Below, piece after piece: positions 1,758 to 24,910 of a stretch of DNA of 64,000 bases. Each line of letters starts with the position of its first letter. Positions within the stretch are counted from its first letter, which is position 1. The notes beneath the pieces are model-generated. The model worked only from the letters and a program-made list of their open reading frames with translations, was not told the DNA's origin and did no database searches. The stretch comes from Ascaphus truei (taxonomy: Eukaryota > Chordata > Amphibia > Anura > Ascaphidae). A program made the translations under genes and the position numbers. The stretch lies in NCBI GenBank assembly GCA_036426205.1, contig WSYH01002453.1, positions 1 through 64,000 of the forward strand. The letters are read 5' to 3'.

Positions 1758-1794
<37 letters not shown>

Positions 1795-1860
1795 ATATAC
1801 ACTTTATATATATATATTTATGAGAGATATATTTTTATATATATATATAGATACACACGT
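1758..1860. repeat. AT / CA dinucleotide microsatellite
   Basis: Alternating TA followed by a short CA run and further TA blocks. Low-complexity sequence flanking the LTR. Confidence 0.9.
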
Positions 1861-2283
1861 ATTTAAACTCATGCAGACAGGGAGTTAACCAGACTTTCAA
1901 ATACACACAGAAATGTATGTGGGAAAAAAACATTTCATTTTGCAGGTGTGTGTATTTACTGATATGGCTGTCTAAGCACTATTTTCACACAGTGCTCTTT
2001 GTTATTTTGCAAGAAAACTCAATGTTACTGAATTAAAAGTGTAGGAATGTTTTCAGAAACGAGATAAAAAAAGGATACAGTTTTGTCCCACATGCGGCTA
2101 TCACAAACCACAAATGTTCAAGCAATTAAAACTACACATCCAATTGGCGTTTGAAATAAGGAGTTACAGTTTATAGTTTTGTTGACCTTGAAAAGGAAAC
2201 ACAGCAATTTGTTAGCCATTGAGCAGTTTCATTTTGATGAGCAAAGAACAGATACCTGCACACATCTTTTGTGCTAATCTGCA
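1861..2283. other. Upstream region of forkhead-like gene 1; no other gene seen
   Basis: AT-rich unique-looking sequence with no convincing TATA box or repeat. It would contain the promoter and 5' UTR of the gene starting at 2284. An in-frame TAA at 2275-2277 rules out an N-terminal extension in this exon. Confidence 0.5.
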
Positions 2284-2952
2284 ATGGCTGATGAATTCGT
2301 GACAAATATGAATCCGAATTTAGGGTATAAATACATGGTATCAGAAGCTATTTTGAGAACTTGCGGACACCAAGCGAGCACATGCCAAATCTATGATTTG
2401 ATTCGAGCAAAATATCCTTATTACCAAGACCGTGGGCATGCGCGCAATTTTAATTCCTCAATAAGATTCACTTTATCAACTAATGACTTTTTTGAACGTG
2501 TGCAGGATAAGCTAGAAGACAACTATGGTTTCTGGAAGATTGCCAAAGAAAAACATTTCACCGTGAAAGAGGGCACATATATTGTGGTTAAAGGCATATT
2601 TATTCCTAATGCCAATAGCAATGGATCCGCTACTACTGTTCCGTGTGAATCGATACCTGCTGCAATATCTGCACCCTCCATTCCTGAAACCCACATTGTA
2701 CAACAACAAAAGTACTATGATTATGTACCAAGCCTTTCAGCTGAAAATGCATTGGAATGGGAACCAGAAGAAATGAACCTACCTCCCGACCAATTGTTTG
2801 AAGAAAGCAGTGGCGATTCCTATGAGCGCTTCATGGAGGAGATGTGTGTCATACTGGATTCAGCGGGTGGGTCAAGCGTGGATGAAAAAGCCTTGCATTT
2901 CTGGAGCGACCAGTTGCAGCCAGACGAAGAGTTAATTCTAGAAGAATGGTAA
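2284..2952 (+). CDS. Divergent forkhead (winged-helix) domain protein, single exon, intact
   Basis: The protein has 222 residues. Residues about 13-88 follow the forkhead pattern: helix 1 (GYKYMVSEAIL), then QIYDLIRAKYPYY matching the GIYEFIMERFPYY region, then recognition helix 3 (NSSIRFTLSTNDFF against NSIRHNLSLNECF), and the wing with GFWKI against YWTL. In helix 3 the usually invariant Asn and His are Ser58 and Phe62, so DNA specificity may differ from classical FOX proteins. The C-terminal 130 residues are Pro/Ser then strongly acidic (EWEPEEM, PDEELILEEW), which resembles an activation tail. ATG 2284 has purines at -3 and +4 and is preceded by an in-frame stop. A nuclear DNA-binding role is inferred. 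I cannot assign a FOX class. It could be a germline-expressed orphan FOX gene, an intronless retrogene, or transposon cargo like the copy at 13.3 kb. Confidence 0.8.
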   Translation: MADEFVTNMNPNLGYKYMVSEAILRTCGHQASTCQIYDLIRAKYPYYQDRGHARNFNSSIRFTLSTNDFFERVQDKLEDNYGFWKIAKEKHFTVKEGTYIVVKGIFIPNANSNGSATTVPCESIPAAISAPSIPETHIVQQQKYYDYVPSLSAENALEWEPEEMNLPPDQLFEESSGDSYERFMEEMCVILDSAGGSSVDEKALHFWSDQLQPDEELILEEW

Positions 2953-4327
2953 ATATAACAACCGTTATGAGTTGACTCTGCGTTTAAATGTTTTTTTTTT
3001 TTGTAACCACCATTTTCCCTTTCAATGCGTGGATACAGCGTAACATTGCAGACTGCATAACATGTAGCGATCACAAAGAAATTGTTTCGGAATACAATAT
3101 AGTATAACCTGAAAGAGTAGTACACATTGCTGACGGAATAAATATACGTACTTTCCTATCACTTTAAACATATTAGCAACATTTTACCCTAACTCTAACA
3201 CATACCTGTTTTGTTATCATGCTACATCTACAACATTTAAAAGCGGGTCCACCACGTATGACGTGGGACCCTTGTCATGGCCCAAGGCGTCCTTAAAAAG
3301 GATTACGGATGTAAGTCCCACCCCCAAGCGACGTGCGCGCCTCAAAGCCTATTGGCTGTCATGTTTTGTTATAGTAACGGTAACTGCAGTGTGTCATGTG
3401 TGCGGCTCAGTGTTTGTAGGCGTCAACTGGGCGTTAGCCGAATGTTAATTGAGTGGGAGGAGTGTTAGCGTGCGTTTCACGCTGGTTTAACATGACGTCA
3501 CACGTATTGCATTTGCGCATTGTGTTATCGGCCGTCCTTTCTGTCCAAACACGTCTGTTTAAAAAGAATACAGATGTACTCGTTTAGAACGAATGTAGTT
3601 TCGTATTCATTGTATTTGAAATAAAGATTTTATGTTTAATGGTATTTTCAAGATGTATTGAACGCACAACGTACGCTTTGTTTTGCGCATGCGCTAACAG
3701 TTAGTGCAGCCAAGCGTAAAGTGCGTGCGCACACTAAGATGTGCACGCACATTTTTCAGTATACAGGCAACTTTCACATCATATACATAGTTATGCCTGC
3801 TACAAATTTAAAGAAACATTACATACTGATGTACACTTGTACTTCTAACATATAAGTGAGTGACGTGTGTATGTACACAATCATATAGAGCTGTGTAATG
3901 CGTTGTCACGGATACATATATAGTAAGGTGCCATATTTGACCATCATGTGTTTGCTGTATTTCAGAGATGTCGGGGAAGATACAATCGGATCAATGTATG
4001 ATTTCAGAAGAGTCTACCTTTATATGAGATGATTGTGAGGAGGAGCCACCGACTACTATACTACATATGGAACTAATTTTATATTGCTTGCAGCGCTTAT
4101 TAACAAACAATTAAAAATGTGATACCCTTATGCCTATATTGCATAAGCACTTAATTAACATAATGATGTTGCAAAATAGTGCCTCATGAATTTTTATTGA
4201 GTGTTCTTTAATGACTACTATCATTTTATGGCATGGTGTGTTTTATATATAACAACCATTCCCACTCTGCTAACACATTTGTGTATTCTATTGTGTAATG
4301 GAACGTATGACTGTCGAAACTATGTAA
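2953..4327. other. Downstream of forkhead-like gene 1; no coding gene seen
   Basis: AATAAA motifs at about 3137 and 3620 could serve as polyadenylation signals for the gene ending at 2952. The segment includes a CpG-richer block (3238-3510, listed separately); the rest is AT-rich without a supported ORF. Confidence 0.5.
3238..3510. promoter_or_regulatory. CpG-rich block with imperfect palindrome, CCAAT and CRE-like site
   Basis: Local base composition differs from its AT-rich surroundings. It opens with an imperfect palindrome (gggtcc...cacgta/tacgtg-type...gggaccc, 3245-3271), followed by an ATTGGCT CCAAT box at about 3351 and a full TGACGTCA at 3494-3501. It could be a promoter or a transposon end. 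No transcript can be assigned. Confidence 0.25.
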
Positions 4328-4597
4328 CAATAATAATAATAATAATAATAATTATAATATGAGCATGTTCATGTATAGCGCTGCTAGTTGTACACAGCGC
4401 TTTACAGACACATTTTTCAGGCTGAGGTCCCTGGCCCGTGGAACTTACAATTTATTTTTTGCCGCCTGAGGCACAGGGAGATAAAGTGACTTGCCCAAGG
4501 TCACAAGGAGCCGACACCGGGAATTGAACCAGACTCCCCTGCTTCAAACTCTCAGTGCCAGTGTGTGTCTTTACTCACTGAGCCACTCCTTCTCCCA
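4328..4597 (-). repeat. tRNA-derived SINE with MIR-like core and (ATT)n tail, reversed
   Basis: Read on the minus strand from 4597, it has an A-box-like TGGCTCAGTGAGT, a B-box-like GGTTCAATTCC, then a CORE/MIR-like stretch (CCTTGGGCAAGTCACTT). It then has a GTAAAGCGCTG...CAGCGCTATA tail and an (ATT)n/(TAA)n terminus at 4328-4352. The order head, core, tail, microsatellite is diagnostic of a tRNA SINE. The B box departs from a functional tRNA, so this is not a tRNA gene. Confidence 0.8.
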
Positions 4598-6178
4598 ATG
4601 TAAAGGACACTTACAACCAACTAGCCATTTATTGTTTAAAATCTCTTGTTACATGGGTATGTTGATAAAATGGTTTGGGACTGTAGCAAATAATGTTATT
4701 GGCCAGATGTTGTGGTCCCCTACAATGCATGATGTTCTGAATATGACATCAACATCATGTAATGAAGTACGTTTCTGTGTATATTTCATTAACCTAACTA
4801 ACTATAGTTTACTGTGTTTATTAAACGTTCTAAAAATACATAGTATAGTCAATATGATGATATAAGCTACCATAATAAAGCTGGTGTTATCATTTGTCGG
4901 TGTTATACATGGATCCTACACAAATTGATACAGACACAAACAGTTGTCTTAAAAAGTGTGTCTATGCTAATGTGCACGTGATTGACGTTACAATTGTGAG
5001 AATACTTGATAATTATCATCATGATAATGATGAAGTGACGTGATTTATATTCCTAAAATATTACCAACATTGTCATATTGGTAAATTAGAAATGCTAAAT
5101 GACTGTAACATTTGCGACAAAATTGTGTTTTCTGTTAACAGTTTTACACTTGGTACATGTAGGACACATCCACACACGTGTGATTTATACATACACATGT
5201 CACTAATTTAAATTAATGTTGACTATTAATTCCTAGCATTAAAAAACACCTACATTGCTAAATATAAGATGTAGTACGCATTGTTGTGATTACAGGCATT
5301 CATGCATGGAGTGTTATGATCAGTCAATTTCATCCGTGATGAATGAGCTCCCGTAAGTAAAGAAATAACTACAGTTATCCCCTTGTCTCCAAACACCTCT
5401 ATATTACATTAATGGAATTTATAAGGAAACATACATAAAATGTGATGAAATGGGAGTAATCATTTTCTAATACAATGCACATGAAAGCTCAAGAGTAGCT
5501 AAATGCATATACATGATACAGAAAGTACATATATGTTACATTTGTGTTTAAACCAATATGTTGGGTTTTGAGTTCAAATAATTATAGGAAGATTGATGTA
5601 GGCACATCTTATGAGAGATGTCAGCAAATATACATACCATGATCAGTCATACTGGAGATATACCTATAATGCAAAGGAACAATATATAAATTGCAAACAT
5701 TGACATGCCATCTTCAGTACCGTAAACAACACAGCAAAGTGTGTATTTGGTGTTGAATGTGCAACACCATGTATATTTAATCACATTCCAAATGTAAATC
5801 AGCCTGGTGTACACATCATATGGATGTACATGTTACACTGCACCAATAACATTGTATGTAAGCATACTAGAAGCATGAATGAGTATGGGCATAATATGTG
5901 TATTGTGTTAGCATAAGGAACAACACAATGCTAAAATATTAGTGCTTTGTTACCCCAGTTGTATTCACATACACACAACTAAAGTACAATTGAAGAGGGA
6001 TTATATAACCTGTGCAACAATAACATACCGGTGCCACATCCCTTTGTGCACACAGCAGAGAAAAGAAAGGTGTGCAACCCATATTCATCTGTGTCCTACC
6101 AGAAGGGTATATAAAAAAACATTATTGTTAAGATAACATAATGTAAGTATAAAAGTAGAACTTGGAACATATATGTTT
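4598..6178. other. No gene recognised
   Basis: AT-rich sequence with short unsupported ORFs only. It may be the 3' flank or non-coding interior of the Harbinger element whose transposase ends at 6179, but I found no matching terminal repeat here and no second (Myb/SANT-like) Harbinger ORF. Confidence 0.4.
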
Positions 6179-7496
6179 TTACTTACAAGAAAAAAATGAA
6201 TTGATGAGATTCTGGCGTGTCTGGCCACCACTGGCTGTTTGTTCATTTTCAGCAGCTACATGGGTGGGATGCTCGTCTACCAAAGGCTCAGCTAGGTCTG
6301 ATTGTACATTGTGCCTGAGTGCAACATTGTGCAAAATGCAACAGGCAAGGATAATATCAGACACTTTTTGAGGCTTGTATAGAAGAGCCCCACCAGTTCT
6401 GTCCAGACACCTAAATCTGGTCTTGAGTAGGCCAAATGTCCTCTCTATAACAGATCTTGTAGATATATGGGCTGCATTGTACCTCTCCTCTGCTTCAGTT
6501 TGAGGGTTTAGCACCGGAGTCAAGAGCCACGGCCTAATTCCGTATCCTGAGTCACCTATAATGAATGGAGCACACATAAGCTGACATTAGTGATCAAATT
6601 GTACAATGCCAACATTCCTACATAAAAATGTGTTTTGTGTTAGAACATGTAAATGTGTACTCACCCAGCAGCCAACCATGTTCAAAATGTCCCTCTTCGA
6701 ACGCATGGAAGACTGAAGAGTTCCTCAGGATAGAGGAATCGTGACTGGAACCAGGGAATTTGGGTACCACATGCATTATCCTCATCGTCGCATCACATAC
6801 CACCTGTACATTGAGTGAATGGTAGTGCTTACGATTGCGGTACACATGCTCACTCTGACTAGGTGCAATCAAAGCAACATGTGTGCAATCGATTGCACCC
6901 AGCACACATGGTATCCCTGCTATATTATAAAAGCCAGTCCTGACTTCCAGCCACTCTGTCGCCTCTGTAGGAAAATGAATATAATTCCTAGCGCGTCTAT
7001 TGAGTGCATAGAGAAACTGGGTCAAGGCCCGCGAGAATGTAGATTGCGAGACCCCGCCCACTATGCCCACAGTTGTCTGGTATGACGCGGAAGCAAGATA
7101 ATGTAATGAGCACAGCATTTTAACAAGCCCAGGGACTGCACGACCTCTGGCTGTGAAAAAATCTAAATCTCCCCTTATCTCCTGATAAAGAGATAAGATT
7201 GCTGCTGAACTCAAACGATAGCGACTTACAATCTCCTCCTCACTCATCCCATCTAACAGGGTTCTCTCCCTGTACAGACGCGGACGAGGCACAACTTGTC
7301 TCCTCTGTCTTCTCCTCTGATCTCCTGTCCCTCTACCTGTCCCTCGTCCTGTCCCTCTCCCTGTCCCTGTCGTATCCGCGTGACTGTCCCTGTCACTGTC
7401 CCTCGGTGTGTCCCTCCCTTGCCCTATATGATTCTCTTGATCATCAAGCATGTCATAGAAAAGAATGTTCCTCCGTCTCCTAAACAATCTCAACAT
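6179..7496 (-). CDS. PIF/Harbinger transposase (HARBI1-like), two exons
   Basis: Exon 1 is complement 6665-7496 and exon 2 complement 6179-6555. The 109-bp intron 6556-6664 has a GTGAGT donor and ATTATAG acceptor, and splicing yields a continuous GWLLGDSGYG junction. The 402-residue product carries the DDE catalytic triad of the family: D203 in LGAIDCTHV, D253 in GSSHDSSIL and E315 in SVIERTFGLLK, plus the family motif ILHNVA. It would cut and paste its own element, with 3-bp target duplications typical of Harbinger. The N-terminus (residues about 43-68) is a low-complexity Gly-Thr-Arg stretch followed by an Arg-rich patch that could aid nuclear entry or DNA binding. No stop or frameshift is seen. 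The partner Myb-like protein normally needed by Harbinger elements was not found nearby. Confidence 0.9.
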
Positions 7497-8469
7497 TTTG
7501 AAATGAGTAGCTGTGAATGAGCAGGTAATGGGCGTCCTTTAAATAGGTATGTGATGATGTCAGGTGACATAGTAAAATGCAAGGTGTTACATTAACATAA
7601 TAAAGTACTTCTGTGGCAAGCTGTGTGCAGTTGTTGTTATAAGTATTTGTTGTGTGTATTCTGCAGGGAATGATGATATTTGCCAATGATGTGACGTGAA
7701 GCTTTGTACAAACATTGCTTGCAAATAAATAGTTGCATGTGCAATGCATGTAACACTTGTGAACGCAACAGTCAGTCATGTAATTAGACAAAAAGGCTGA
7801 GATTGACGTGGGAAAAGTTTTGTGTAACATGTGTAATTAGGCATGTTATTGTGACATGTTGACAACAATGAATAGTCGTGTGCATATGCATGCATTTCTG
7901 TAAGGAGGATAGTTGGTATAGAATGAGTTTACAAGGTGTCCCAATGATGAATTACTGTACATGTGTGTATAAGTTAGGTTGAAGTGCTTGTAATGCAACG
8001 GTTACAATGTAAACATGCAATGTGATTGATCGTCCAATAAGTGACGTCATGAAAATAGGGAGGACCAAACGTAGATGTAAACATGAGAATTTAGATGTAC
8101 ATGAACGTTTAAAGATGCGTGACACATTACAAGCATTGTGTAATGTAAAAGAACATGAATATACGGTGTATGTGTTAGATGTGTGACATGTGTAACATCA
8201 TGTAAATAATTGTCGCTCAGTTCAGTAAAATGTGTGATATGATGTGAGGTTCTCCTTTAAGAGTTGAGTATAGTATTTTCCCTTGACACATCATCACATG
8301 ATGAGTAATGTGACCCGCAAATGCTGAAAACATGTAAAAGTATAATCTTATGCAAATTATACACGTCAGCTGTGACACAATGCATGGAATGCCCCCACAC
8401 TGTAATGCAAATGACGTTTGTATTGTGAGCAATGAAACGTAAACAGTACTATACTGTTATACGTCCCCG
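7497..8469. other. Upstream of Harbinger transposase; no gene recognised
   Basis: AT-rich with many TGTAACATG-like short repeats. It should contain the minus-strand promoter of the transposase gene. No confident TATA box or second ORF was found. Confidence 0.4.
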
Positions 8470-8828
8470 CTCCATTGACTCCATTGATGTACAGAAGTTT
8501 TTTTTTTCTAAGTGCCGTTCCGGCAGCCTTAGCGATCGTTCTCCCCTCCAAACTGCCAACTTTAGTTGGCGGGAGAAATTGGCCATAACATCTCAATTTC
8601 GTAGTGCCGATCAGCCCCGATAAGCTGTTTTTTTTTGTTGAATCCAGCCGATTTAAAAAAGTGGCGATCAGTGGCGAAAACAGGCTTATCGGCAGCCGAC
8701 TGGCCATAACAAAATAATCGGCTCCGAAACATGGCGAAATCAAGCACTTATCGGCGCTTACTGAATCTCAAACCCAATTTTGGCTATAAAATGGCGATAA
8801 TTCCTTTATCAACGCTTACTGCATGAGG
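8470..8828. repeat. Transposon-end-like block with repeated GCCGAT/GATAAG motifs
   Basis: This GC-richer block holds many short copies of CCGATAAG, TTATCGGC, GGCGATAA and GGCCATAAC in both orientations and stops abruptly at gcttactgcatgaggccc (to about 8828). Such subterminal motif arrays are typical of class II element ends, and it lies at the far side of the Harbinger transposase. The matching left end is not found in the window, so linkage to Harbinger is inference. Confidence 0.4.
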
Positions 8829-8844
8829 CCCTATGTCCTTACTC

Positions 8845-11735: not shown

Positions 11736-12785
11736 GTCGCGCATGCGCCTCGAGATCCCTGTTTTTTTGAGTGCGTCTTGCAAGTCTCTTCTCAGGGAAT
11801 TTATCTGCGCACTTTGCTTTCTCTGGGTTTGTATCAGTGTCTCCTTCATATTCTGGAGCTCTGTAATTGTTGTTGTCAAGGTTGCCGCTGTGTCTGTTTT
11901 CTCCTTGGTGTATTGAATCAAGGGAATTGTATTGAATCTGGTGACATGCAGCATGGCCTTTAGCTCCTCATACTGCTCTGTGGGGACACACTGGGTATTC
12001 AGACGTTTCTTTAGCGCTTGTACCTCTTTAGCAGCCTGCAGAATTTCTTCCTGCAGAGTTCGCTTCTTCTCCTTGGCATTCTAGAGGTGTGTATGCAAAC
12101 CTTGTAGCTGGTTCTGCAGTCAGTGCTCTGCTTCAACCTTTTCACCTTCCAGTAGTTTCTTTATTTTTTCCAGCTCATGGAGCTTTTCATTCTTTCTATT
12201 GATGTGGTTTGTCAACTCAGAATTTTCTTATTCTTGTTTAAAATTTTCTCTTTTTACAGTCTCTGTAATATTCAGGGCCTCCTTGTAGTCCGTCTTCCAT
12301 TTTCGCACCTCTGCTTGGAGACTGACTGTCTCCTGGCGTGAGACTTCCATCTCTAGGTTGAGAGTCTGATGCTTCTTCTGAGAGACTTTGAGATCTATAC
12401 TAAGATTGACAATAGTTTTTTAGAATTGTCCAGCTCCTCAGCGAGACTGTAAAGTTCCGTTTTGGAGACTGCCAGTTTTTTGCGGCAGCTGCCGATCTCA
12501 TGGTGGGAGGCATCCAGTGCTGTGCGGAGAGTATGAACCTCTTTCTGGGATATGTCCCCCTCTGTCCGGACTCCGTTGACCTCCTGGTGTGAGGCTTTCA
12601 GTTCTATGTGGAGAGTGTGAACCTCATTCTTAGAGACTTCCACCTCTCTATGGCACTTGCGAACCTTTTTCTGAAAGACTGAAATCTCTTTCAGTGCCTC
12701 CTCATATTTCTGCTTCAGATTAGCAATCAGTCTATCAGATTTGCTCTGTTTTTCATCCATGGTGGTAATAGTAGCGTTTGCTGTA
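11728..12785 (-). pseudogene. Coiled-coil gene family member A, 3' half (split by the Tc1-type element)
   Basis: Minus-strand frames encode long heptad-rich helices: complement 12760-12395 (residues such as DRLIANLKQKYEEALKEI, then about 14-residue repeats of the type KxEVxTLxxELxxSxxEV) and, after stops and frameshifts, a segment to about 11735 (ITELQNMKETLIQTQRKQ). DNA around 11945-12200 closely parallels 57880-58200 (shared gagctcctcatxctg...), showing it belongs to the family at 56.8-58.8 kb. Its upstream half lies at 24404-25465. Removing the element between them gives an in-frame junction (...TDLDTANATITTMDEK) that also matches the copy at 53.7 kb. Its left end is cut by the L1 fragment. 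Function is unknown; a structural or Gag-like role is possible. Confidence 0.7.
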
Positions 12786-12810
12786 CTGATGGGACGGCGG
12801 TTACTCGAAC
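12786..12810 (+). repeat. Left terminal inverted repeat of the Tc1-type element
   Basis: Pairs with 24379-24403 (two mismatches in 25). Preceded by TA. Confidence 0.8.
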
Positions 12811-13311
12811 GGATCGCAAATCAGTTTTCGTGTTGACCGCTTTATTCCATTCGGTATTTCCGCGTTTTGACCACTATTCATGCCGCGTTCGCGCAATCCG
12901 GCACCGGGCAGCCACACTCGGTTGATCTGTTTAATTTAATGGTTTATTGTTTCTTTGGACGCAATTCTTTGCATATCCACCATGTGGCAGAGGTTAATGA
13001 ATTATAATTTGGTTGCTATTCTTTGCGTATCCGCCAGGTGGCAGAAATTGATGCATTTAATGAATTGTATTGAATTGTAATGTGCATGCTACAGTGCTAC
13101 AGTATACAGTATTTTGTTACAATGTAAGGGTGCAGGTGTTTAAAACAGATAGCACCCACATCTATACTGGTACATACTTACAGTGGCCCATTGTGAATTG
13201 ACCTTGATTTTTCGAAGACATTATTAAATTAGGCGTTCTTAATAAAAAGCTTTAAATACTTAATGTGTGCCTTTTTCTTTCCCCGCACAATAGCTGAGCT
13301 GAGTGGACATT
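12811..13311. other. Left subterminal region and upstream region of forkhead-like gene 2
   Basis: Two related segments (attctttgcatatccaccatg and attctttgcgtatccgcca, near 12966 and 13018) form a short direct repeat. A pyrimidine tract ending CACAATAG at about 13293 could be a 3' splice site just before ATG 13312. No other gene is seen. Confidence 0.45.
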
Positions 13312-13942
13312 ATGGCTACACCAGAGGCGTATAAAAATCTGACTGTAGTTATGCATTTTTAATATATTCGGCAATAAATGCTGCAGCAGATAAAATGGCG
13401 ACTGTATCTGAAATATATGAATATTTCATTTCGAACTACGATTTTTACAAGGTTTCACCAGACGTTTATAAGTGGAAGCGCGCGATAAGAAAAACCTTAA
13501 GTAACGATCAGTGTTTTTGTCGCATTGCCCCTAATGCCGGAGAGATTTGCAGGTATTGGGGTGTCATGCCAGAATTTCACAGTATGTTTGATCATGGCAA
13601 TTTCAAAAGAAGAAATGTCGGTTTTAACCCATATAAGAATCGTCAATCCCGATCCAGCAATGTGCCGGCAACAGCACCAGCACTGGCCGGTCCGACCGTC
13701 AGTGATAACCTGGTGAACGGCAATCTTTTGTACCTGTCCCCGCCTGAATACTTGGAAAATTTCCAGCCTGGCATGATTTCGCGTACAGGTACCAGCAAGC
13801 TTGCATTTACCAGTACCAAAATATTTTCCCGCTTCATCAGTTGTTAACTACAAGTGTTCCAGGTCAGCTGTCACCTGTCAACTATAATGCAAACTTGAGG
13901 AGTCACAGTGAGTCATCACCTCCCGTTTGGCAAAGTTTATAA
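13312..13942 (+). pseudogene. Forkhead-like (winged-helix) gene 2, inside the Tc1-type element
   Basis: ATG 13312 opens MATPEAYK. A one-base loss in the A5 run at 13333-13337 shifts the frame, after which codons from 13335 read KSDCSYAFLIYSAI, then MATVSEIYEYFISNYDFY, then KWKRAIRKTLSNDQCF, then RYWGV. This is a complete forkhead domain (compare KPPYSYIALI, LSGIYEFI, WQNSIRHNLSLNECF, YWTL). In helix 3 the DNA-contacting Asn, Ser and His are Arg, Ala and Lys. A second shift near 13790 is likely, because the next frame continues plausibly (HQLLTTSVPGQLSPVNY) to a TAA at 13940-13942. The full product would be about 210 residues, close to gene 1 (222). A DNA-binding role is inferred, perhaps recognising element ends or regulating transposase. 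A shorter ORF alone could start at 13395. Confidence 0.7.
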
Positions 13943-14949
13943 TGAAGGTAAATATACAGTACAGTAATGTACTACACTGTATTAAACTATACTATACTGT
14001 ACAGTACATGACAGTATTACTGTAAGTTTAGAGCTGCAGTTCAAGCTTTCATGTGTCAAAACAAAATTATTTTTTAAACAATACTGTACGTACTTTACAG
14101 GGCATCTATACAATACTGTATGCGAGTTGAGGGGATGTTTCTCTGTTGAGTGCACTCTGAAGAATGATTTGATTGGCCGTCGAAGTACCTGACGTTGCAG
14201 CTTAAAAATGTAGGGAGAGGGTGGGGTTGAAGAGTCAGAGCCAATCAGAAGTTTGTTCTCATCCTACAGACACAGATGTAGGATATTGCTTGAACGGCTG
14301 CTTTAATTCCCAATGACACGACTTGACGCATGCGCAATACCATTAATAATAGCATATTTGTTTCTTTTTCCCCAGAAAATAAACTTTGACATCAAGCGGA
14401 AAAAGACAAAAGAAGGGATTTGGATGGACCTCCAATATCGCTTTTTTTTTAAAGTTGCTTGCACATTGTTTGCCATGTAGGCAAACATTTAGTGACAGTA
14501 CCATTTTTATTGATAGAACAATTGTGAGCTTTATAGAAAACCTTATACTGTACTGTATGCTGCTTTTTTAATATTCAAATGTTTTTCTTACATTGTACAC
14601 TACTGTCATCTTCACAACTTTTCTTATAAACACCAAAAATAAAAATGTATATCTTTTATTCTATACAGCATGTATTATTTATTATTCAATGCTTTCCACT
14701 TTTGCAACAGACTACTGTTTTTTCTTTTACTGCGTGTACTGTACTGTGCTGTATGTCTCATTTTGACATTTTTTTTAATAACAGGTAAGAGAAATGCCCT
14801 TGCATTACATTACAGTATGTGAAGTGCAATGCTTTGTTAAACTGTTAATTAGTATTTCAGGTCTGCAAAAGGGGGTTGGTCAAAAAATACATTTTAATTT
14901 TTTAATTCAGGTTTAACAAATATATATTTTTGGGGGTTACAGTATGAGA
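13943..14949. other. Non-coding interior of the Tc1-type element
   Basis: AT-rich with many TACAGTA/TACTGTA motifs and two CCAAT boxes (near 14171 and 14243). Bases about 14818-14890 are a diverged direct repeat of about 15661-15730 (gtgaagtgcaatgctttg ... aggtctgca). No gene is seen. Confidence 0.5.
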
Positions 14950-15149
14950 TTCAAACAGTACTGTTGCTTTTTAATTCCACACTAGTCATGTACGTTCTTT
15001 CTGAGGGGGTGGCATACTGTAGTACTGTGATTTTTATTTGGGGGTGTGGGTATCAAAACATTATGATGACCTATTGAGAATATGTCTTTGAACTACAGAA
15101 CAGCTTTGAACTTCATACAGATCGCACAGCTCGCACCCCCTCCCCCCCG

Positions 15150-15199
<50 letters not shown>

Positions 15200-15900
15200 C
15201 TCAATGATTTCAACTTCTTATCAACACCTCTGACAAACCATGCACCATGCCACGCATGCGCAAGTGCGATAAGCTAAGCCCTTCTAACTTGCCTTTTCTT
15301 CAACACAACACTTCCAACCCACTAGTAATAAGATTAACATGTTGTGTGAGATACAGGCTGAGCTAAGCAAGCCCTTCAAAAACTGCTATTGTACTGTAAC
15401 AAAACAAGTCAACTTGAAGTTCAAAGCTTATCAACAACACAACAACAGAGCCCTCCAACAGAGCCATTCACGTAAATGTGCTGTTGCGTTATTATCCTGA
15501 GCTGGGCAGAAGACATGTTGGATAATCCTTAATGCAGGAAAATAGTATTTTTCTATAGAATTTTATTGCATTATTAACAGAAATGATTGATTAAACAATA
15601 AAAATATAATAATTTGTATAAAACATTTTTTGTTTTTCTATATATTGTTTTCCAAACTAATGTGAAGTGCAATGCTTTGTTTGTTGAATTTCAGGTCTGC
15701 AAGAGGGGGTCAGTTTAAAAAATAGAATTATTTTTTAATGCATAATACAGTACAAAAAAAAATACAGTAGCTCTTGTCTTTCTCTTCGTTATGGCATTGC
15801 GATTTGGGAGGAGATCGACGAGAGAGGGGGCTGCAGCTCTGAAAATTCAGTATTTCAAAAGATTTTTTTTAAAACAAATTTTGTATTATTTATTTTTTTA
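14950..15900 (+). repeat. Left long inverted arm
   Basis: Over about 0.95 kb the sequence is the reverse complement of 22885-23785, with shared landmarks such as caagtcaacttgaagttcaa, the catgcgcaagtgcgataagc segment and the gtgaagtgcaatgctttg segment. It contains a CA microsatellite at 15151-15197. The arms flank the two divergent genes and are not at the element ends. Confidence 0.85.
15151..15197. repeat. CA microsatellite
   Basis: About 23 uninterrupted CA units inside the left arm. The partner position in the right arm (near 23600) is a G/GT-rich run. Confidence 0.95.
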
Positions 15901-16574
15901 TAGTTTCTCTCACAGCTCTCATAATTGTTGGGGTAACACGGAAAAAACGCTCCACTTCATTCAAAATGGTCTTTCTTAAATTTGCTGGCAGAGCATTCTT
16001 TCTTTTGTTTCCTTCATTATTTACATTGTGGGTCCATCTCAAAAGTGATGGTGTGTTTAAATATTGACAGGGCAAATTTATGGGCTGCACCAGCACTTCC
16101 AGTCTTGTATTTCTCCAGGGCGTGCTGGGTCAGGTCAGTCAAGATGATGTCCGGCAGCGTTACAATCCTGGGTGCTGGTGTACTTCTTGCAGCGTGCGAG
16201 GGTAGGCGGTCTGGGAGGATGCTTTCCTCCTGTCATGGCCTTACTGAAGTTGACATCTCATCCTCAAAGGCATACTGGTACAGACGATCTGGTGATGGAG
16301 CGGGGGGGTCTTGGTGAGGGAAGCGTGAAGGTTACATCATGCAGGTCACCCTTCTGCTCCTGCGTCGGACATACTTGTTCAGGGACAGGAACTCGCAGCA
16401 AAGAATACATCCCCACAATCTTCCTTTCCATTTTCTCCATGTTCCTTCCCATTTTCTCCATATTTTTTTCTATTTTCTCCATGCGCATATCCATACTCAA
16501 CATGGTCTCCAAAAGAAGATCAACCTTTTGATCCGTGCTGTAGACATTTGCATAGGTAGGTGGTGGAGGAGATG

Positions 16575-16800
16575 ATCAGGGGGTGGCCAGGAGAACAGCG
16601 TCGAGGATGGTTGGTGGAGCTGGTGACCAGGGGGTTGGCAGGAGAGCATCCTCAATGATGGGTTGGGGAGCAGGTCGGCAGGGGGTTGACAGGAGAGCAG
16701 CAGCATCAAGGATAGGTTGTGGAGCAGGTCAGCAGGGGGTTGACAGGAGAGCAGCAGCGTCGTGGATGGGTTGAGGAGCAGGTGAGCGGGGGGGGGGGTG
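16575..16800. repeat. Minisatellite (about 55-bp unit, about 4 copies)
   Basis: Units contain ggagcaggt.agcagggggtt and gacaggagagcagcagc with small changes, followed by a G9 run at about 16790. It encodes the Pro/Ser linker of the BEN-like product on the minus strand. Confidence 0.85.
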
Positions 16801-17070
16801 CAAGGAGCGGATCGGGACTCCACTTGACTTGCACTGTTCTAAGGGCGCCAAATTTCTTCTTCACAAAATAAGGCCCAGGTGTCTTAACCTTTGAAGCCTT
16901 CGGAACATTTTCTTTATTCTGCTTTGGTTTTCGCTTAGGTTTTGGCTGGGAAACAGCTTCCGCCTTTCGCTTGGCCGGCACGGCAGAACATAAACATATA
17001 TAACCTATTCTGCTCTCCTATTACTTAAGGTGGTAAAAATCAAGGTGCAACAGAGGAAAAAATTGTATAG

Positions 17071-17161
17071 TTACACAAATTGGTCCCAAAGGGATCAAGA
17101 AAAAGACCATCCAAATGCATGCACTCTATGATAGTATAGAACTGATATGGTAAGTATACAG
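17071..17161 (+). repeat. Left inverted repeat of the PLE
   Basis: Near-identical in inverse orientation to 20203-20298, with one short indel. Inverted terminal tails of this kind are known from Penelope elements. Confidence 0.8.
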
Positions 17162-17214
17162 AAATTACAATGGCTTCTATGGAGATATCAGGGTCTTAAT
17201 AAAAACAAAAATAT

Positions 17215-18629
17215 TTGGATGTGGATGTGGATGTGGAGAATCTATACTCCAGTATACCACATACTTTGGGGTTGAAAGCAGTTAATTAATTTTTTGAGAG
17301 CAAGAGATGAACGTGTTGTACCTCATAATGCCTTTGTCATCAAAATGTTAGACTATACCCTCAGCCACAATTTCTTTTTATTTGACAGGTCAATTTACCT
17401 ACAAATACAAGGTACCGCCATGTGGACCACCTGTGCTCCCACCTACGCCAATTTATATCTAGGCTGGTGGGAGGAAACGGTGGTCTTCATGGCGGAAAAT
17501 GACAGATATTCAACATACATACAAATGTGGCTGAGGTATATAGATTACAGTTTGCTCTTCTCGAATGGCCCAGAACCTTTACTATATGAATTTATCAATA
17601 CTCTGAACAAAAATGGAAATAATCTAAGACTCACTTACCAAGTATGAAAAGAGAAAATAGAATTCCTAGACATTACCATTTTAAAAAATATAAATGGCGA
17701 CTTACAAACAAGCATCTATAGAAAACCGACCGCAACCAATAACCTTTTGGAAGCACGGAGTAACCATCCAAAACATATTACCAATAATATTCCGTTTGGC
17801 CAATTCCTCCGGCTACGCCGAAACTGTTCAACATTGAGCGAATTTAAACTCCAAGCCTTAGACATGAAATCTAGACTTCATGAATGTGGATACAGCAAGA
17901 CCTTGACACACAAAGCCTATCATAAAGCTTTAATATCTAATAGATCCAGACTCCTAGCTCCGAAACCACAAGGACAACTAGATGCAAAGATCAGATTTAT
18001 AAGCACTTTCTCAAATCAGTCAAAACAAATCAAGAATATCCTCCAGAGACATTGGAACATCTTACTGGAGGAAAGTCCTTTCAGATTATCCTCCAACTGG
18101 GTATAGAAGAGCTAGGAATATTGGAGACAGTCTGGTAAAAAGTCATTTTCAAACGCAATCAACCAGAACCTGGCTGGTGGATAGACCTTTGGGATCCTAT
18201 CCATGCTCACATTGTAAGGCCTGTAAAGCCATGAAAGTTACAAAAATATTCACAAAAACATCAAAGACAGTCTCACACAAGATAAAAAGTTTTATTAACT
18301 GCGAAACAACAGGTGTAATTTACTTGATCACATGTATCTGCGGAAAAGCATATGGAGGCAAGACTCATAGACAACTAAAAAAGCAGATATTGGAACATCT
18401 AGGGGACAAAAGGAACTCACAAGAAACCCCAGTTGCCACACATGTTCTACAATGCCATAATGGCAATAGTGATATATTATCCTTTGCAGGCATTGAAAAT
18501 GTCACATTAGGTCCCAGAAAGGGCAATTGGAACAAACGACTATTACAGAGGGAATGTCGCTGGATATTCCAGCTACAGACACTAAACCCTCAGGGATTGA
18601 ACGAGGGTTACATCTACTCGTCTTTCTAA
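17215..18629 (+). pseudogene. Penelope-like RT with C-terminal GIY-YIG endonuclease, degraded
   Basis: RT motif A is visible at about 17225 (ENLYSSIPHTLGL), followed by LQIQGTAMWTTCAPTYANLYLGWWE (split here as QGTAMWTTCAP and NLYLGWWE). The catalytic motif reads RYIDYSLLF, so the second Asp of YxDD is Tyr. In-frame stops occur at 17645 and 18104, and a frameshift lies near 18090. The linker includes a CSHCKAC zinc-binding motif. The GIY-YIG endonuclease follows (GVIYLITCICGKAYGGKT, with THRQLKKQILEH), ending at 18629 after LQTLNPQGLNEGY. The enzyme would nick DNA with the GIY-YIG domain and prime reverse transcription. N-terminal RT motifs are absent (5' truncation). It resembles Neptune/Poseidon-type elements of fish and frogs. 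Confidence 0.88.
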
Positions 18630-19275
18630 TCATTGCAACCACTTCATCACTTAAGGGTTAGTTTGGGAATTGGTATATAGTTTAATTATCAGCACGATCT
18701 GTATTGACCATTTAAGGGCAGATCACCTATTTTAGTAGTCACATTCCTACACATATACACTTAGTGGTTGCCCCCTTTTTTCAAACCATCTTTGCATCCA
18801 TTCACCAATATCACAATTTTCACTTATTAGATTGATATCATGTTCTATTTATATAGAATTAGTTAAAATTTATTATTAATTCATTATATATTACCTTTTA
18901 TCTAATTATTTTTTATTATCATTCACTAGTTAGTTATTTAATTAGTAGATGGTCTGCATTGTCCAATAGGGGCAGACCACATAGAGTTAATCACATTCCT
19001 AGACATTACAATGTATTATATTTGATCATAACCTTTGTTCCATTGCCCTTCTGGGGACCCTTTGGTTCACATCTTTATACCCTCATATCTCCCATCAGTC
19101 TCAACAATAATAAATATTATACCTAAAGCCATCTATTTTCATTTAATTTGGTCCGAGATTTAGAGAAGCCTATTGGTTCTAACTCTGCTCACTCCAATAG
19201 GCGAAGAAGACCAAGGTCACGCTTCTTAGGAGCATAAATATCACGTATACAGGGCCTTACCTTTAGACTCCTCCT
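18630..19275. other. PLE 3' non-coding region
   Basis: AT-rich sequence with no ORF. It contains an inverted CCAAT pair (agcctattggttc ... ctccaataggcg, 19169-19204) just upstream of the stem-loop motif. Confidence 0.5.
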
Positions 19276-19312
19276 CATCGGAAGAAGCGAGTTGCCTCGC
19301 GAAAAGCGCGTC
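19276..19312 (+). ncRNA. Hammerhead-like stem-loop motif of a PLE
   Basis: The order is a GGAAGA core-like segment, stem GCGAG-TTGC-CTCGC, then GAAAAGCGCG. PLEs are known to carry hammerhead ribozymes (core CUGANGA, stem II, GAAA). This copy departs from the CUGANGA consensus, so cleavage activity is doubtful. Confidence 0.35.
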
Positions 19313-20202
19313 ATGAAGTAGAGCGTCACGTTCGGTGTCGTCATCGAAGCTCGACATCAGCCATCTGAATATGGCTTGTATTTTCGCCTCCTTCACTCCT
19401 GACCCGCCACGGCAGGGTGGTTGTATTTATACATATATACTCTGTGTTCCATTACAAACTGCCTCTCCTCTTAGGCAGTTTTTTACACATCTTTGTGGAC
19501 ACCTACTATTTGAGTGGATATCAATTGCTGTACCTCTCATTATGGAGATTGGTAGTGTCAGTTTCCACTACACGTGATGTTGTATTAATAGCTTGGGTAT
19601 TACAGAGAAAGAAGGCTAAAACACTATTGAATTATATGTGTTTTTGGGGACAAGTGTTTACTTAAGGTTACTAACAAAGACTCCTATATCAGCATTTCAA
19701 CTAAGTTTGGATTGTATTTGTCTATGCGGATAGGACAACTCTGGTGAAAATAATTTTATAATACAAACACTTTATACATCCTATACATCCACAATTCAGA
19801 CACATTTAGTGCAAATTCCATATGCAAATTTGCAAAAAGTCTACTAGAAGACTAAATGCACTAAAGTGTAAAAGAAATTGGGTGCCAAAAGAGAATGTGC
19901 TATATACTACACCGAATCCGGAAAAGGAGCATATATGTTACTATACCTGCAAGTATCCTAGATAATAAGTCGCGAAATTTGCAATTCAGTAACTCACTCA
20001 GAGAAAATAAGACTGATTATCTCATGTGTTTCAGTAAAGTCACTTGAAGAAAATATATATACAGTGCCATAAATTACTTTTTGGAGATTAATAATACTCC
20101 GCTGATGTCGAAGTAATATTGGATTTTACCACCTTGGGTAAAATAAACAAAATAAAAGCCTATATACATTTGGCAATAAAGACAAACAATATTACCACTC
20201 CT

Positions 20203-20298
20203 CTGTATACTTACCATATCAGTTATATACTATCATAGAGTACTGTACATGCATTTGGAGGGTCTTTTTCTTGATCCCTTTGGGACCAATTTGTGTAA
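20203..20298 (-). repeat. Right inverted repeat of the PLE
   Basis: Reverse complement of 17071-17161. It ends one base from the 14-bp target duplication. Confidence 0.8.
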
Positions 20299-20354
20299 CC
20301 CGGCACGGCAGAAGCAAGCTGGTTCCTGCTTTCGTAGAATCGGGGGTGATCCAT

Positions 20355-20659
20355 GGAAACAGAAGGACTAATACACAATGCAGTATCTGGACAAGAGAAA
20401 GTTCAGATAGAGATCAGTGTGTGTGAGAGTCTATGCAATTTGTCTCACCTTTTATTTGAAATTTTTCGCGGGCATGGACACGAGGTGCAGGTGTTAAAAG
20501 TGGGCGTACTGTGTACTAATCCTGTCGAGTGACGTTGAGGCACATTAAATTAAAGTATAAATACACCATCCATTTTGTGTATTCAATGCACATTCAATAC
20601 ACATCGAATTCACATCGAATTGCTCTGTGTGTGCTCGCATTTTTTTTCTAACAGCAGCG
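20355..20659. promoter_or_regulatory. Divergent promoter between BEN-like gene and transposase
   Basis: About 305 bp separates the two start codons, which point away from each other. It holds an E2F-like TTTTTCGCGGGC (about 20462), a TATAAATA box (about 20557) suitable for the plus-strand transposase, and a short tandem repeat of attcaatacacatcgaa/attcacatcgaa (about 20592-20620). Confidence 0.45.
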
Positions 20660-22332
20660 ATGCCAAATAATTTTTTTTTTCAAAAGATCTCAGCTTGAGA
20701 ATAAAGGATATGTACCAGAATGGACACAGCATTTTACAGATCCAACGCTGGTACAGTAGTACTTCTTATCCTCCATACTGTAACTCTAACAACATCTTGT
20801 ACTGTTCTGTATGCCTGTGTCTGCCTGTGTGTTCTGTATGCCTGTGGTAACTAATAATCCTCCATTTACTGTACACACACACCCACAAAGCATCAACAGT
20901 ACAGTACTGTATGTCACCAGCTTTTATGCCAGTGATTGGGTGATACAGTAGGAGTGACTGAGTGTTTGACAGTGCAGTCTGTTGGGATGCTTTATTTGAG
21001 GGAGGGACGCTTAATTTGCCTACTGTAACACATGGTTCTGTTTTTCTTTACACTGTAGGGCGACAACACTTCTGGTGGACCAAATGAGTGAACAGAATGA
21101 TCACGTGTGCCACAAGGGTAAAGAATGCACTAGAGGCAATTCACAAAATAAAAGCATCTGTGACAAACATCAGGCAGATGAGACGGAAATTGGGATGGAA
21201 ATATGGGCGTGTTAAGTAAGTACTATACAGTTCTTGTTTAGCCTTCTATTTTCATGTTAGGCTCCCTCCTAGCCTACTGTACAATAGGGTTGGCCAACTG
21301 TACTGTATGTAATACTGTCCATACTGTATACTGTATTGTTTCAATACATTACTGTTAGTTTTCTATACTGTACAGTAGATGTATTTGACATATTTTTTCG
21401 TTTTTTGAGTGCTGGGAACCATCATACTGTATCTCCAGTATTTAGTACCTCTAACATTAATCCTTGTCATTACAGACCGTATCCTATGATAAGGGAAGCC
21501 AACAAAATAAAAAGAGTGGACCAGGCATGGGCATGGATCGAAAGTGGCGAGACTTTCCAGGATGTCATCTTTACTGATGAGACAAATGTAGCGCTTGAGA
21601 GATTTGCCCATTTTGCATTCTACAAAAAAGGACGCCTATCTCTGAAGCTGCATCCCAAGCACCCAGTGAAGATGCATGTGTGGGGTGCCGTCTCTTGACA
21701 AGGACCAGCATGCATCATGATCTTTGAAGGTAAAATAATGCACAAATACACATGCTGTGCCTGTGGCCTTGCCTCATGCACTGGACAGCTTTACCGTACA
21801 GTATTTTGCACCCTAATGTTACTGTACATTTTTATTTTCTTGTTTCCAGGAATCATGAATAAAGCGTTCTTCCAAGATCACATAATTTCACATGTTGTCG
21901 AATACATTAGGAATGATTTCCCATCTGGTCACCGGTTCTTCCATGACAATGATCCGAAACACACAGCGTCAACAGCTCACATTCTTGCCAGCGGTATCAA
22001 CTGGGTTGAGACGCCAGCAGAGTAAGTTGGGTAACCATTTCTCATTGTTTTACACAGTTTATATCTCCTTACAGTAAGTAATTAACTTTTTTTTCTCCCC
22101 TCCTACTGTATTCCAGTTCACCAGATTTTAATCCCATCAAAATGGTATGGCATGAGTTGAAGGATTATATCAGAAAAGTGTGGAAACCATCATAAAAGGA
22201 TGAATTGGAGAAAGGGATACTGCATTTCTGGAAAACATACTCACCGTAGCCAGATGTAATAAATATATCGATCATATTGCGACTGTGTTGCCAATTGTTA
22301 TACAACGTAATGGCGAGGCCTCGGGAAAGTAA
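20660..22332 (+). pseudogene. Tc1/mariner-family transposase with introns, degraded
   Basis: The exons I can place are 20660-about 20755 (helix-turn-helix, LSLRIKDMYQNGHSILQIQRW, split as LSLRIKDMYQNG and HSILQIQRW), about 21060-21215 (NIRQMRRKLGWKYGRV), 21477-21729, 21850-22021 and 22117-22332. Introns have GTAAGT/ACAG, GTAAAA/CCAG and GTAAGT/CCAG borders, and splicing restores [22 protein letters not shown] and ETPADSPDFNPIK. Catalytic motifs are VIFTDET (first D) and [11 protein letters not shown] (second D). The usual NPIE Glu is Lys (NPIKMVWHELK), in this copy and the one at 62 kb. The C-terminus (KYIDHI-type...VIQRNGEASGK) matches Tc1 relatives ending HLRKVIPKVIEL. Lesions are a T10-tract shift after ATG 20660 and stops at about 21089, 21697 and 22192. 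Confidence 0.82.
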
Positions 22333-22334
22333 TA

Positions 22335-22930
22335 AGGCACAGGTAAGTATCATACAGGTAAGTATGGCCCTAAAAATATCCATGTCTGCATTTATTGTTT
22401 CTTTTCATTTTCAGAACTGCCGCAATGAAAAAAGGAAGGGGGGGGGGCGTGTATAAGATAATAGTACGGTGTTCATGTACAAACCAGCCTGTATCTTACA
22501 CAAACCCCCCTCTCCCACCCTCTCTCAGTAGTTACTGTATAGAAATTCGTGTTTGCCAAAAAAACAAACAAGAAAAAATGTTTTAAAAAAATATTTTGAA
22601 ATAAATACTGTATTGTTATTGTTTTAACCATTTATTTCTGTTAATCAGGCACAGGTAAGTATGATACAGGCACTTTACAGCACTGTAAGTACTGTATGGC
22701 ACTCAAACTAACCATGTCTGCATTTATTGTTTCTTTTCATTTTCAGAACTGCTGCAATGAAAAACAAAGGGGGGGGGATGTGTAAGATAATAGTACGAGG
22801 TTCATGTACAAACCAGTCTGTATCTGACACAAACCCCCCTCTCCCACCCTCTCTCAGTAGTTACAGTATAGAAATTTGTGTTTGCCATAAAAAAACATAG
22901 TAATAAAAAAATTGTTTTAAAAAAAATCTT
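22335..22930 (+). repeat. Tandem duplication (two units of about 300 bp) containing a GTAAGT...TTTCAG unit
   Basis: Bases about 22335-22640 and 22648-22930 share gcacaggtaagtat, gcatttattgtttcttttca, the AACTGC.GCAATGAAAA segment, a G-run and acaaacccccctctcccacc. Each unit looks like an intron followed by a short exon in the transposase 3' region. Confidence 0.75.
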
Positions 22931-23785
22931 TTGAAATACTGTATTTTCAGAGCTGCAGCCCCTTCTCTCCCTGATCTACCCCCATCTCGCAATGCCATAA
23001 CGAAGAGAAAGACAAGAGCTACTGTATTGTACTTTTGTACTGTATTATGCATTAAAAAATAATTCTATTTTTTAAACTGACCCCCTCTTGCATACCTGAA
23101 ATTCTTATGAACAGTTCAACAAACAAAGCATTGCACTTCACATTAGTTTGGGAAACAATATATACAAAAAAAAAAAAAGTTTTATAAAAATTATTATATT
23201 TATATTGTTTAATCAATCATTTCTGTTAATAATGCAATACAATTCTATAGAAAAATACTATTTTCCTGCATTAAGGATTATCTAACATGTCTTCTGCCCA
23301 ACTCATGATAATCACTCAACAGTACATTTACGTGAATGGCTCTGTTGGAGGGCTCTGTTGCTGTGTTGTTGATAAGCTTTGAACTTCAAGTTGACTTGTT
23401 TTGTTACAGTACAATAGCAGTTTTAGAAGGGCTTGCTTAGCTCAGCCTGTATCTCACACAACATGTTAATCTTATTACTAGTGGGGGGTGAGTGTTGTGT
23501 TGAAGAAAAGGCAAGTTAGAAAAGCTTAGCTTATCGCACTTGCGCATGCGTGGCTTGGTTTATCAGAGGTGTTGATAAGAAGTTGAAATCCTTGAGCCCT
23601 GTGTGTGTGGGGGGGGCTGGGGGGGGGGGGGTGCGAGCTGTATGAAGGTCATCATAATAATGTTTTGATCCCCACACCCCCAAATAAAAAGCACAGTACT
23701 ACAGTATGCCACCCACCTCAGAAATAACGTACATGAATAGTGTGGAATTAAAAAGCAACAGTGCTGTGTGATTCTCATAATATCC
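22885..23785 (-). repeat. Right long inverted arm
   Basis: Reverse complement of 14950-15900 (see that entry). Similarity ends near 23785, beyond which the two sides are unrelated until the 25-bp termini. Confidence 0.85.
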
Positions 23786-24378
23786 ATAATTGCTATGCAA
23801 GCCCATTTCGAGAAAAGAAAAATAAATACTGTTAAAAAAAAAGGGAAGTCATACAGTATACGCATGCGCAGGAATGTACTATAAGGCCACGCTCGGGAAG
23901 ATTCAAACCAGAAAGCCATTCATTATAAATGAATGGTGTGGGAGAGGTGTACTGTAGATAAGAAGTTGAAATCCTAGAGCCTTGTGTGTGTGCGGGGGCG
24001 AGAGCGCTGTACTGTATGATGGATTATCAGTCCAAATAAATATTTTCAAAGGTCATAATGTTTAATGCGCAGAAATATGATACTGTGACACGCCTACAGT
24101 ATGCGTTTCACACTGCTCTGTGTATAATACAGATACAGTACGCACAGTACAGTACACACGCTGCTCTGTGTATAATACAGACATTGAATTGCTATTGGAT
24201 TTTTATGACAACAACTCGCGATCGCCCACTTGAGTTTCTCGACGGTATTGCAGACAACGCTAAAATGCCCTTTTCTTACCCGGACAAAACGATAAACAAG
24301 CCGCGTGTTTAAGTCGGCACGATTCAAATAAATTGCGCGCCATCTAATGGGTATTCCGATCTACACACCGCGTTAAAT
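23786..24378. other. Right subterminal region of the Tc1-type element
   Basis: Contains repeated ctctgtgtataatacaga blocks (about 24115 and 24164). A conserved segment at 24184-24262 (gacaaca.ctcgcgatcgccc) recurs in opposite orientation at about 48130-48212. The ORF across 24058-24312 is not conserved in the other copy. Confidence 0.55.
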
Positions 24379-24403
24379 GTTCGAATAACGGCCGTCCCAT
24401 CAG
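24379..24403 (-). repeat. Right terminal inverted repeat of the Tc1-type element
   Basis: Partner of 12786-12810. Followed by CA, probably a mutated TA target duplication. Confidence 0.8.
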
Positions 24404-24910
24404 CATCTAGATCTGTCCTTAGATCCTCCAAGTCGGTCCTGGATTCAGAGTACATTGCGAGAACAGTCTTCTGTAGCTCAGCATTGTATTTCCTCTCCAG
24501 TTTCAATTGTTCCCGGAGCAGATCACAGTCACGCCTGGCAATTTTCAGGGCATCTTAGGGCTGGTCAAGGAAACATAACTCATTGGTTCCGGCTCCGTTT
24601 CCCTGGTATGGTTGGTTGCGCGTTTCTCACTATTAGCACCGGACAGACACTTCTTTTTGGTACACGACTTCTGCCTTGGGCCCTCTGGATATTCGGTCAT
24701 CCGCAGGACAAATTCTCCATTTTCTCTAGGCTGCAGAGCATCTCGGACCCCCTTTTCCTCCCCGGGATCTGCAGATGTGTCTGTTCCTTCCACGGTAAGT
24801 GAAGACCCTTTTTTATTTCCGCCTTTTTGTTTTTGACGACTCCGTCCCATCAGGGATACTGGGGTCTCCGTCTTTATTTGAAACTTCAGCAGCTTCACTC
24901 TATCCACCAT
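24404..24910 (-). pseudogene. Coiled-coil gene family member A, 5' half
   Basis: The minus-strand frame from 24910 encodes a basic N-terminal region (MGRSRQKQKGGNKKG) and a charged segment. After a frameshift near 24545 it continues ALKIARRDCDLLREQLKLER, then ELQKTVLAMYSESRTDL, up to the Tc1-type element at 24404. The ALKIARRDCDLL...LKLER segment aligns with LQAAQKAIDCLYGRLDKEQ (58.5 kb) and ALQTARHDCFLLYEQLDKEQ (53.6 kb), so three family copies share this heptad start. The gene continues at 12785. Function is unknown. Lys-rich head plus long coiled coil could be a structural or Gag-like protein. Confidence 0.7.

Follow-up and report, generated by a model that had tools for sequence, protein, structure and literature searches.

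Transposons of the Tc1/mariner superfamily usually take the form of a single intronless gene within 1-3 kb, a form that is not strictly defining, and their transposases, that of Sleeping Beauty included, are regarded as self-sufficient one-gene machines. Can such a transposon be built from several genes, and what would the additional genes do for it? The question is raised by a 64,000-nucleotide stretch of the genome of the frog Ascaphus truei (contig WSYH01002453.1, positions 1 to 64,000; hereafter the window), in which a first-pass annotation had described positions 12786-24403 as a Tc1/mariner-type transposon carrying a forkhead-like gene, a BEN-like gene and a divergent, multi-exon transposase. 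Here, we report that the segment 12786-24403, bounded by inverted ends of 25 bp, is a DNA transposon of Tc1-like type, and that it is a three-gene transposon and not a chance enclosure of unrelated sequences. The evidence consists of its ends and TA target, its gene content and gene order in two subfamilies, its forkhead and DDE domains, and the selection on all three of its genes. Besides a five-exon transposase gene, the element carries a forkhead gene and a coiled-coil gene, and we consider it probable that the products of these two are its DNA-binding helpers.

Ends, Target Site and Copies in the Genome

The left terminal inverted repeat occupies 12786-12810 (plus strand) and the right one 24379-24403 (minus strand); both limits recur in the genome copies of the respective end, and the two arms match at 23 of 25 positions (92%). 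Terminal inverted repeats are a feature of the Tc1/mariner superfamily. The terminal pattern, with up to three mismatches allowed, is found at two sites of the window only, which are the two arms, and never in 100 shuffles. On the left the element is flanked by TA (12784-12785) and on the right by CA (24404-24405), a decayed TA. When the flanks are rejoined with one TA, the frame of the minus-strand coiled-coil open reading frame (ORF) that the element had interrupted is open across the junction, and the remaining two frames carry stops close to it; hence the boundaries of the window copy are real.

The 2.82-Gb genome of A. truei was searched with the left 315 bp and the right 254 bp of the element. 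Since these queries contain no gene, the gene content of the copies that they retrieved was not selected for. The left query gave 1794 first-look candidates, and the 40 that were scored had 94-100% identity, 38 beginning at base 1 and two at base 2; the right query gave 2840 candidates, and of the 40 scored (95-100% identity) 38 extend to the last base. We fetched ten left-end copies (c1-c10, 15-16 kb each) and five copies with paired ends (p8.9, p7.5, p6.1, p3.8 and p2.9). TA stands to the left of all 15 and thus, with the window, of 16 of 16 copies; in the six fetched copies whose right end is full (c6, c10, p8.9, p7.5, p6.1 and p2.9), it stands on that side too. The right end of p3.8 is changed and reads CATCGG, then TA, and in c1-c5 and c7-c9 the right end is absent from the fetched stretch. 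The 25-bp inverted termini and the TA-type target that had been proposed are thereby borne out.

Forkhead sequence was detected by tblastn in all 15 fetched left-end copies, in p2.9 as the first 49 codons only. The same method found the second gene in eight (c1, c5, c6, c7, c9, c10, p8.9 and p7.5) and transposase sequence in seven (c1, c6, c7, c9, c10, p7.5 and p6.1), three of them partial: c10 retains exon 1 only, p7.5 is without the 3' end and p6.1 holds the 3' half. Transposase exons 2-5 of c9, at 56-58% identity, are of a diverged type. Six of the 15 (c1, c6, c7, c9, c10 and p7.5) retain all three genes at least in part. Copy c6, 9,818 bp in length, combines both ends with, in decayed form, the forkhead gene (plus strand), the coiled-coil gene (minus strand) and the five-exon transposase gene (plus strand); p7.5 (7,533 bp) likewise has both ends and decayed genes, but the 3' end of its transposase is gone. 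Two copies, p3.8 and p2.9, are internally deleted. Two left-end loci outside the 15, L006 and L008, for which 1.5-kb flanks only were available, also show TA and forkhead sequence. With three genes, five transposase exons and three-gene copies of 7.5 and 9.8 kb, the element departs from the one-gene, 1-3-kb form of its superfamily.

The first-pass annotation had held that the element belongs to a family and is no single accident, and the many left and right ends and the further gene-bearing copies agree with it. It had also asked whether all three genes lie between the same termini: they do so in c6, and the opposite outcome, in which copies with these termini always lack the additional genes, did not occur. 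A chance enclosure of host genes is ruled out, for every one of the 15 fetched copies has forkhead sequence within these termini, and a diverged subfamily has it as well.

The Transposase

By comparison with related copies, the transposase gene appears to comprise five exons on the plus strand, at 20660-20751 (cut short in the window copy, where about 110 bp are deleted), 21059-21215, 21476-21729, 21850-22021 and 22117-22332. The four GT-AG introns were placed by eye in those copies, and c6 itself lacks the first donor. The catalytic domain matches PF13358 (DDE_3), the transposase type of the Tc1/mariner superfamily, with an E value of 2.5e-15 for the window copy; the family consensus scores 63.4 bits vs 28.6 (E 2.7e-17). 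Sleeping Beauty is the only match below E 0.01 in the PDB (E 2.4e-16) and hence the nearest solved structure. Together with the TA target and the inverted ends, the domain match upholds the assignment to Tc1/mariner; together with the five exons read from the sequence, it upholds the description of the transposase as multi-exon. As to the N-terminal helix-turn-helix DNA-binding region of the superfamily, the consensus matched no such model in Pfam, and the relative from Xenopus laevis matches such models below their cut-offs.

The spacing of the catalytic triad in the consensus is DD32E and not the DD34E of the Tc1 family proper. Among the 75 motif-bearing proteins of a 100-protein set, the spacing from the second D to the E is 34 in 71, 32 in three and 35 in one. 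DD32E is found in the X. laevis transposase LOC121396371 (P0001), which shows 56% identity to the window query across 85% of that query, in P0002 and P0004, and in the A. truei family. Both window copies read NPIK, with AAA (K) as the third catalytic codon, in exon 5. A triad already dead in the ancestor is ruled out: AAA occurs at the two window sites only, nine sites in other copies have GAA (E), and the change falls at a CpG. A tree was built from 25 of 92 transposase matches and six rows from A. truei loci. The A. truei rows form one clade (100/98), eight of the nine being decayed copies or truncated gene models, and P0001 and P0002 join it at 93/92. The idea of DD32E as a clean clade was not borne out; spacing 32 marks no such single group, because P0004 falls with fish proteins (86/80), two of which, P0008 and P0014, fit 34.

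The Forkhead Gene

The forkhead gene runs from ATG to TAA at 13312-13942 (plus strand), with at least two frameshifts in the window copy, and in the family it encodes a protein of about 210 aa. The match to PF00250 scores 60.1 bits against a gathering score of 27 (E 2.3e-16), the closest PDB match is FOXL2 (E 7e-14), and an AF2 model gives a pLDDT of 72-94 per ten-residue block over residues 1-90. As judged from these comparisons, the forkhead identity that had been suggested for this gene is firm. In forkhead proteins, an Asn and a His of the recognition helix make base contacts. The corresponding segment of the element's protein, WKRAIRKT, aligns to WQNSIRHN of FOXL2 and has neither residue; WKRAI is kept in four of four copies of subfamily B, where it is followed by RKK, RKK, RKM and KKR. 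On this alignment, the recognition helix departs from that of canonical FOX proteins yet is nearly identical across both subfamilies.

A protein search with the window forkhead alone found no relative among 42 candidates, and a profile built from the forkheads of both subfamilies gave eight matches among 7990 candidates scored. Seven of these are annotated A. truei hypothetical proteins, in pieces of 79-201 aa that are mostly truncated; outside A. truei, the 7990 yielded only one ordinary FOXL protein. Viral contigs searched with the forkhead and the transposase contained no relatives.

The Second Gene

The 3' part of the second gene lies at 15890-16987 (minus strand), and its 5' end with the start codon, severed by a nested insertion, lies at 20314-20354 (minus strand); in c6 this 5' end is joined directly to the equivalent of 16987. 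The gene is real, in that its consensus has no stop in the aligned frame and it is conserved between subfamilies. Its product appears by eye to contain proline-rich repeats and a coiled coil; beyond these, some 100 aa at the C terminus form a conserved domain. The BEN identity that had been ascribed to it was not confirmed. The resemblance is by eye only: the Pfam BEN model (PF10523) recognised one of nine family members at E 0.19 (12.4 bits vs a cut-off of 23.2) and not the consensus, a PDB profile search gave no match up to E 10, and a single-sequence fold model had a mean pLDDT of 54. A further relative of the C-terminal domain lies at 52121-52300 (38% identity, E 8e-9), at a position inconsistent with the broken copy that surrounds it.

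A Second Subfamily and Selection Between the Two

The fetched stretches of c1, c2, c5, c8 and c9 contain relatives of about 68-76% DNA identity, which we call subfamily B, the copies described above forming subfamily A. The forkhead proteins of B and A are 51-56% identical. The B ends, found by comparing B copies, read TA|CWGCTGCGGC or variants and differ from the A ends. One B copy (c8:2808-15358) has both ends and TA on both sides and contains the forkhead gene twice, the second gene on the opposite strand and the transposase, in the same order and on the same strands as in subfamily A; in another, that of c1, the ends enclose forkhead and transposase.

The ratio of nonsynonymous to synonymous change (pN/pS) was computed for the A consensus against single B copies, with 2000 bootstraps; for forkhead, the two tandem copies of c8 were merged into one entry. 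Raw ratios are given because synonymous change is near saturation, and Jukes-Cantor ratios are mostly lower. The forkhead domain gave 0.31, 0.33 and 0.31 (wrong frames 1.14-1.59), the C-terminal part of the second gene 0.45 and 0.48 (wrong frames 0.76-1.0) and the transposase 0.32 and 0.27 (wrong frames 1.21-1.72), and all 95% bootstrap ranges lie below 1. As inferred from these codon comparisons, purifying selection has acted between the subfamilies on all three regions. When single A copies were set against the A consensus, the ratio averaged 0.90 over 15 forkhead copies, 0.68 over eight copies of the second gene and 0.71 over six of the transposase.

Non-coding Features of the Element

A stretch of 37 bp near the left end (13009-13045, plus strand; element position 224-260) is the most conserved in all three A-B comparisons, at 84-92% against a mean of 56%, and in subfamily A a repeat resembling it sits 54 bp ahead of it. 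Within this block, 13031-13045 agrees at 14 of 15 positions with what we take to be the core consensus of CTCF. By the same assumed consensus, ten of 16 A copies, the window included, reach 14 of 15 and the other six at best 13, and when the c6 left end was shuffled 500 times, three of the shuffles came within one mismatch. From its sequence, the block is a putative site that could serve a host factor or a protein of the element. A second site that we presume to be CTCF-like lies at 12977-12991, also in the left non-coding end.

The element also contains an internal inverted repeat, with a left arm of about 1 kb (14943-15901) and a right arm (22887-23779). These arms enclose the second gene and the transposase and exclude the forkhead gene; similar arms are present in c6, and they are not present in p7.5, whose right part is gone.

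Nested and Neighboring Elements

The insertion that severs the second gene (16989-20299, about 3.3 kb) is bounded by a direct repeat of 13-14 bp (16975-16988 and 20300-20313), its duplicated target. Its site is empty in c1, c6, c7, c9, c10 and p7.5, with 1-14 bases between the flanks, and c10 has an additional gap in the second gene. The insertion therefore postdates the element, and since it enlarges the window copy, the native length is near 8-10 kb. We take its ORFs to be Penelope-like; for the two that were scanned, Pfam gave no supporting match.

The first-pass annotation had also noted fragments of the same family at 48 and 60 kb. They are indeed related; they belong, however, to the diverged subfamily B and apparently to a single broken copy. 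Its right end lies at 47995-49267 (minus strand, with TA at 47993-47994) and a further part, with 3' transposase exons recognised by tblastn, at 60515-62188 (minus strand). From their sequence, the two look like one B copy broken by insertions and apparently running to about 66.6 kb; its forkhead was not found up to 73.9 kb. A nested LINE-like element has its ORFs at 50302-51724, and the first ORF matches a reverse transcriptase (RVT_1, E 2e-17). Just beyond the window, at about 69.1-70.3 kb of the contig, there is another fragment of the family with 3' transposase exons.

Adjoining the element, positions 1780-8831 form another transposon-like unit that carries a forkhead gene. This young repeat of about 7 kb contains an intact forkhead ORF of 222 aa (2284-2952, plus strand; PF00250, E 3.1e-14) and, on the minus strand, a transposase of Harbinger type (6179-7538; DDE_Tnp_4 in Pfam). 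It shares 98.4 and 98.9% identity with two further full copies, both of which have an intact forkhead ORF and one of which has an early stop in the transposase. Of 1340 candidate copies of the forkhead, 40 were scored, that of the window among them, and all 40 have 98-100% identity. The right end of the unit is, we presume, Harbinger-like, and the left end stops at a CA repeat.

Discussion

How might three proteins serve one transposon? The predicted transposase would cut at the inverted ends and paste the element. The forkhead protein would bind element DNA, and the leading candidate for its site is the conserved block upstream of its own gene, a site either for it or for a host factor. From that block the forkhead would either regulate the element's expression or draw the transposase and the ends together, and the coiled-coil protein would act as an oligomerising partner.

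Several observations weigh against giving the two additional proteins such a role. None of the copies examined is both intact and complete. The B side of the selection analysis consists of single decayed copies (three for forkhead, two for the second gene and two for the transposase). Constraint is weak or absent in the forkhead tail (0.74, range 0.54-1.01; wrong frames 1.27-1.70) and in the initial portion of the second gene (0.64, range 0.48-0.84; wrong frames 0.76 and 1.3). The contrast for the C-terminal part of the second gene is the weakest, because one wrong-frame value is 0.76, and its two B copies compared with each other gave 1.92. The drift expected of dead copies is clear for forkhead only, as the single-copy means set out above indicate. 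The core motif TGTTTAY is not enriched in the element (three found vs 5.8 expected), so that ordinary FOX-type binding is unsupported, and the conserved left-end block may be occupied by a CTCF-like host factor and by no protein of the element.

The main rival to a role in transposition itself is that the forkhead and coiled-coil proteins form an anti-silencing or expression module, acting on the chromatin of the element and sustaining its transcription with no part in cutting. The resemblance of the left-end block to the CTCF core, as we presume that consensus to be, would suit such a module, but Pfam finds no chromatin enzyme domain in the forkhead protein or in the scanned parts of the second gene; we regard this as a real contender about which we are nonetheless somewhat doubtful. 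We also propose, tentatively and as an unlikely possibility, a more specific three-protein Tc1-type system. In this, a captured forkhead with a retooled recognition helix would, with its coiled-coil partner, recognise the element and direct or license its transposition, and forkheads would have been recruited separately by at least two unrelated superfamilies in this frog, the second being the adjacent Harbinger-type repeat. That the forkhead and second genes were captured once and are merely carried as passengers would fit the weakly constrained forkhead tail and the internally deleted copies without most of the cargo (p2.9 and p3.8), but it is already disfavored by the selection that the subfamily comparison reveals on both the forkhead domain and the second gene, and by the kept gene order, and we think it quite improbable. 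Least credible of all is a host function, by which the transposon would spread regulatory genes that serve the frog: forkhead relatives are annotated in A. truei as hypothetical proteins, but those annotations are mostly truncated pieces and the sampled forkhead copies drift.

With Sleeping Beauty and other Tc1-like transposons, the A. truei element shares the DDE_3 catalytic domain, the TA target and the inverted ends; it differs from them in its spacing of 32 instead of 34, its five exons, its two additional genes and its length. The newly named Traveler (DD35E), Incomer (DD36E), Intruder (DD38E) and TRT (DD37E) are likewise Tc1/mariner families defined by triad spacing and, as far as the available parts of their descriptions go, none is DD32E; our literature search returned no "DD32E" family among the matches listed. 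Accessory regulatory genes on DNA transposons are known from several superfamilies, for example the TET/JBP genes of fungal elements, SET in HarbingerS and the anti-silencing protein of Vandal, although both the proteins and the superfamilies are different ones (excerpts of PMC12730594). PIF/Harbinger elements, which carry a Myb/SANT protein, similarly combine a transposase with a separate DNA-binding protein, but the transposase is unrelated and the DNA-binding fold is another (PMC12730594, same excerpts). The text of that paper nowhere mentions Tc1 or mariner, and the literature search turned up no description of a forkhead-carrying element of Tc1 type.

Two additional genes kept under selection would show that the Tc1/mariner superfamily can become a multi-protein system. 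The element would also be a natural case of a transposon capturing the domain of a developmental transcription factor, opposite in direction to the known cases in which transposases became fused to host genes, and it makes testable the idea of forkhead proteins steering a TA-targeting transposase.

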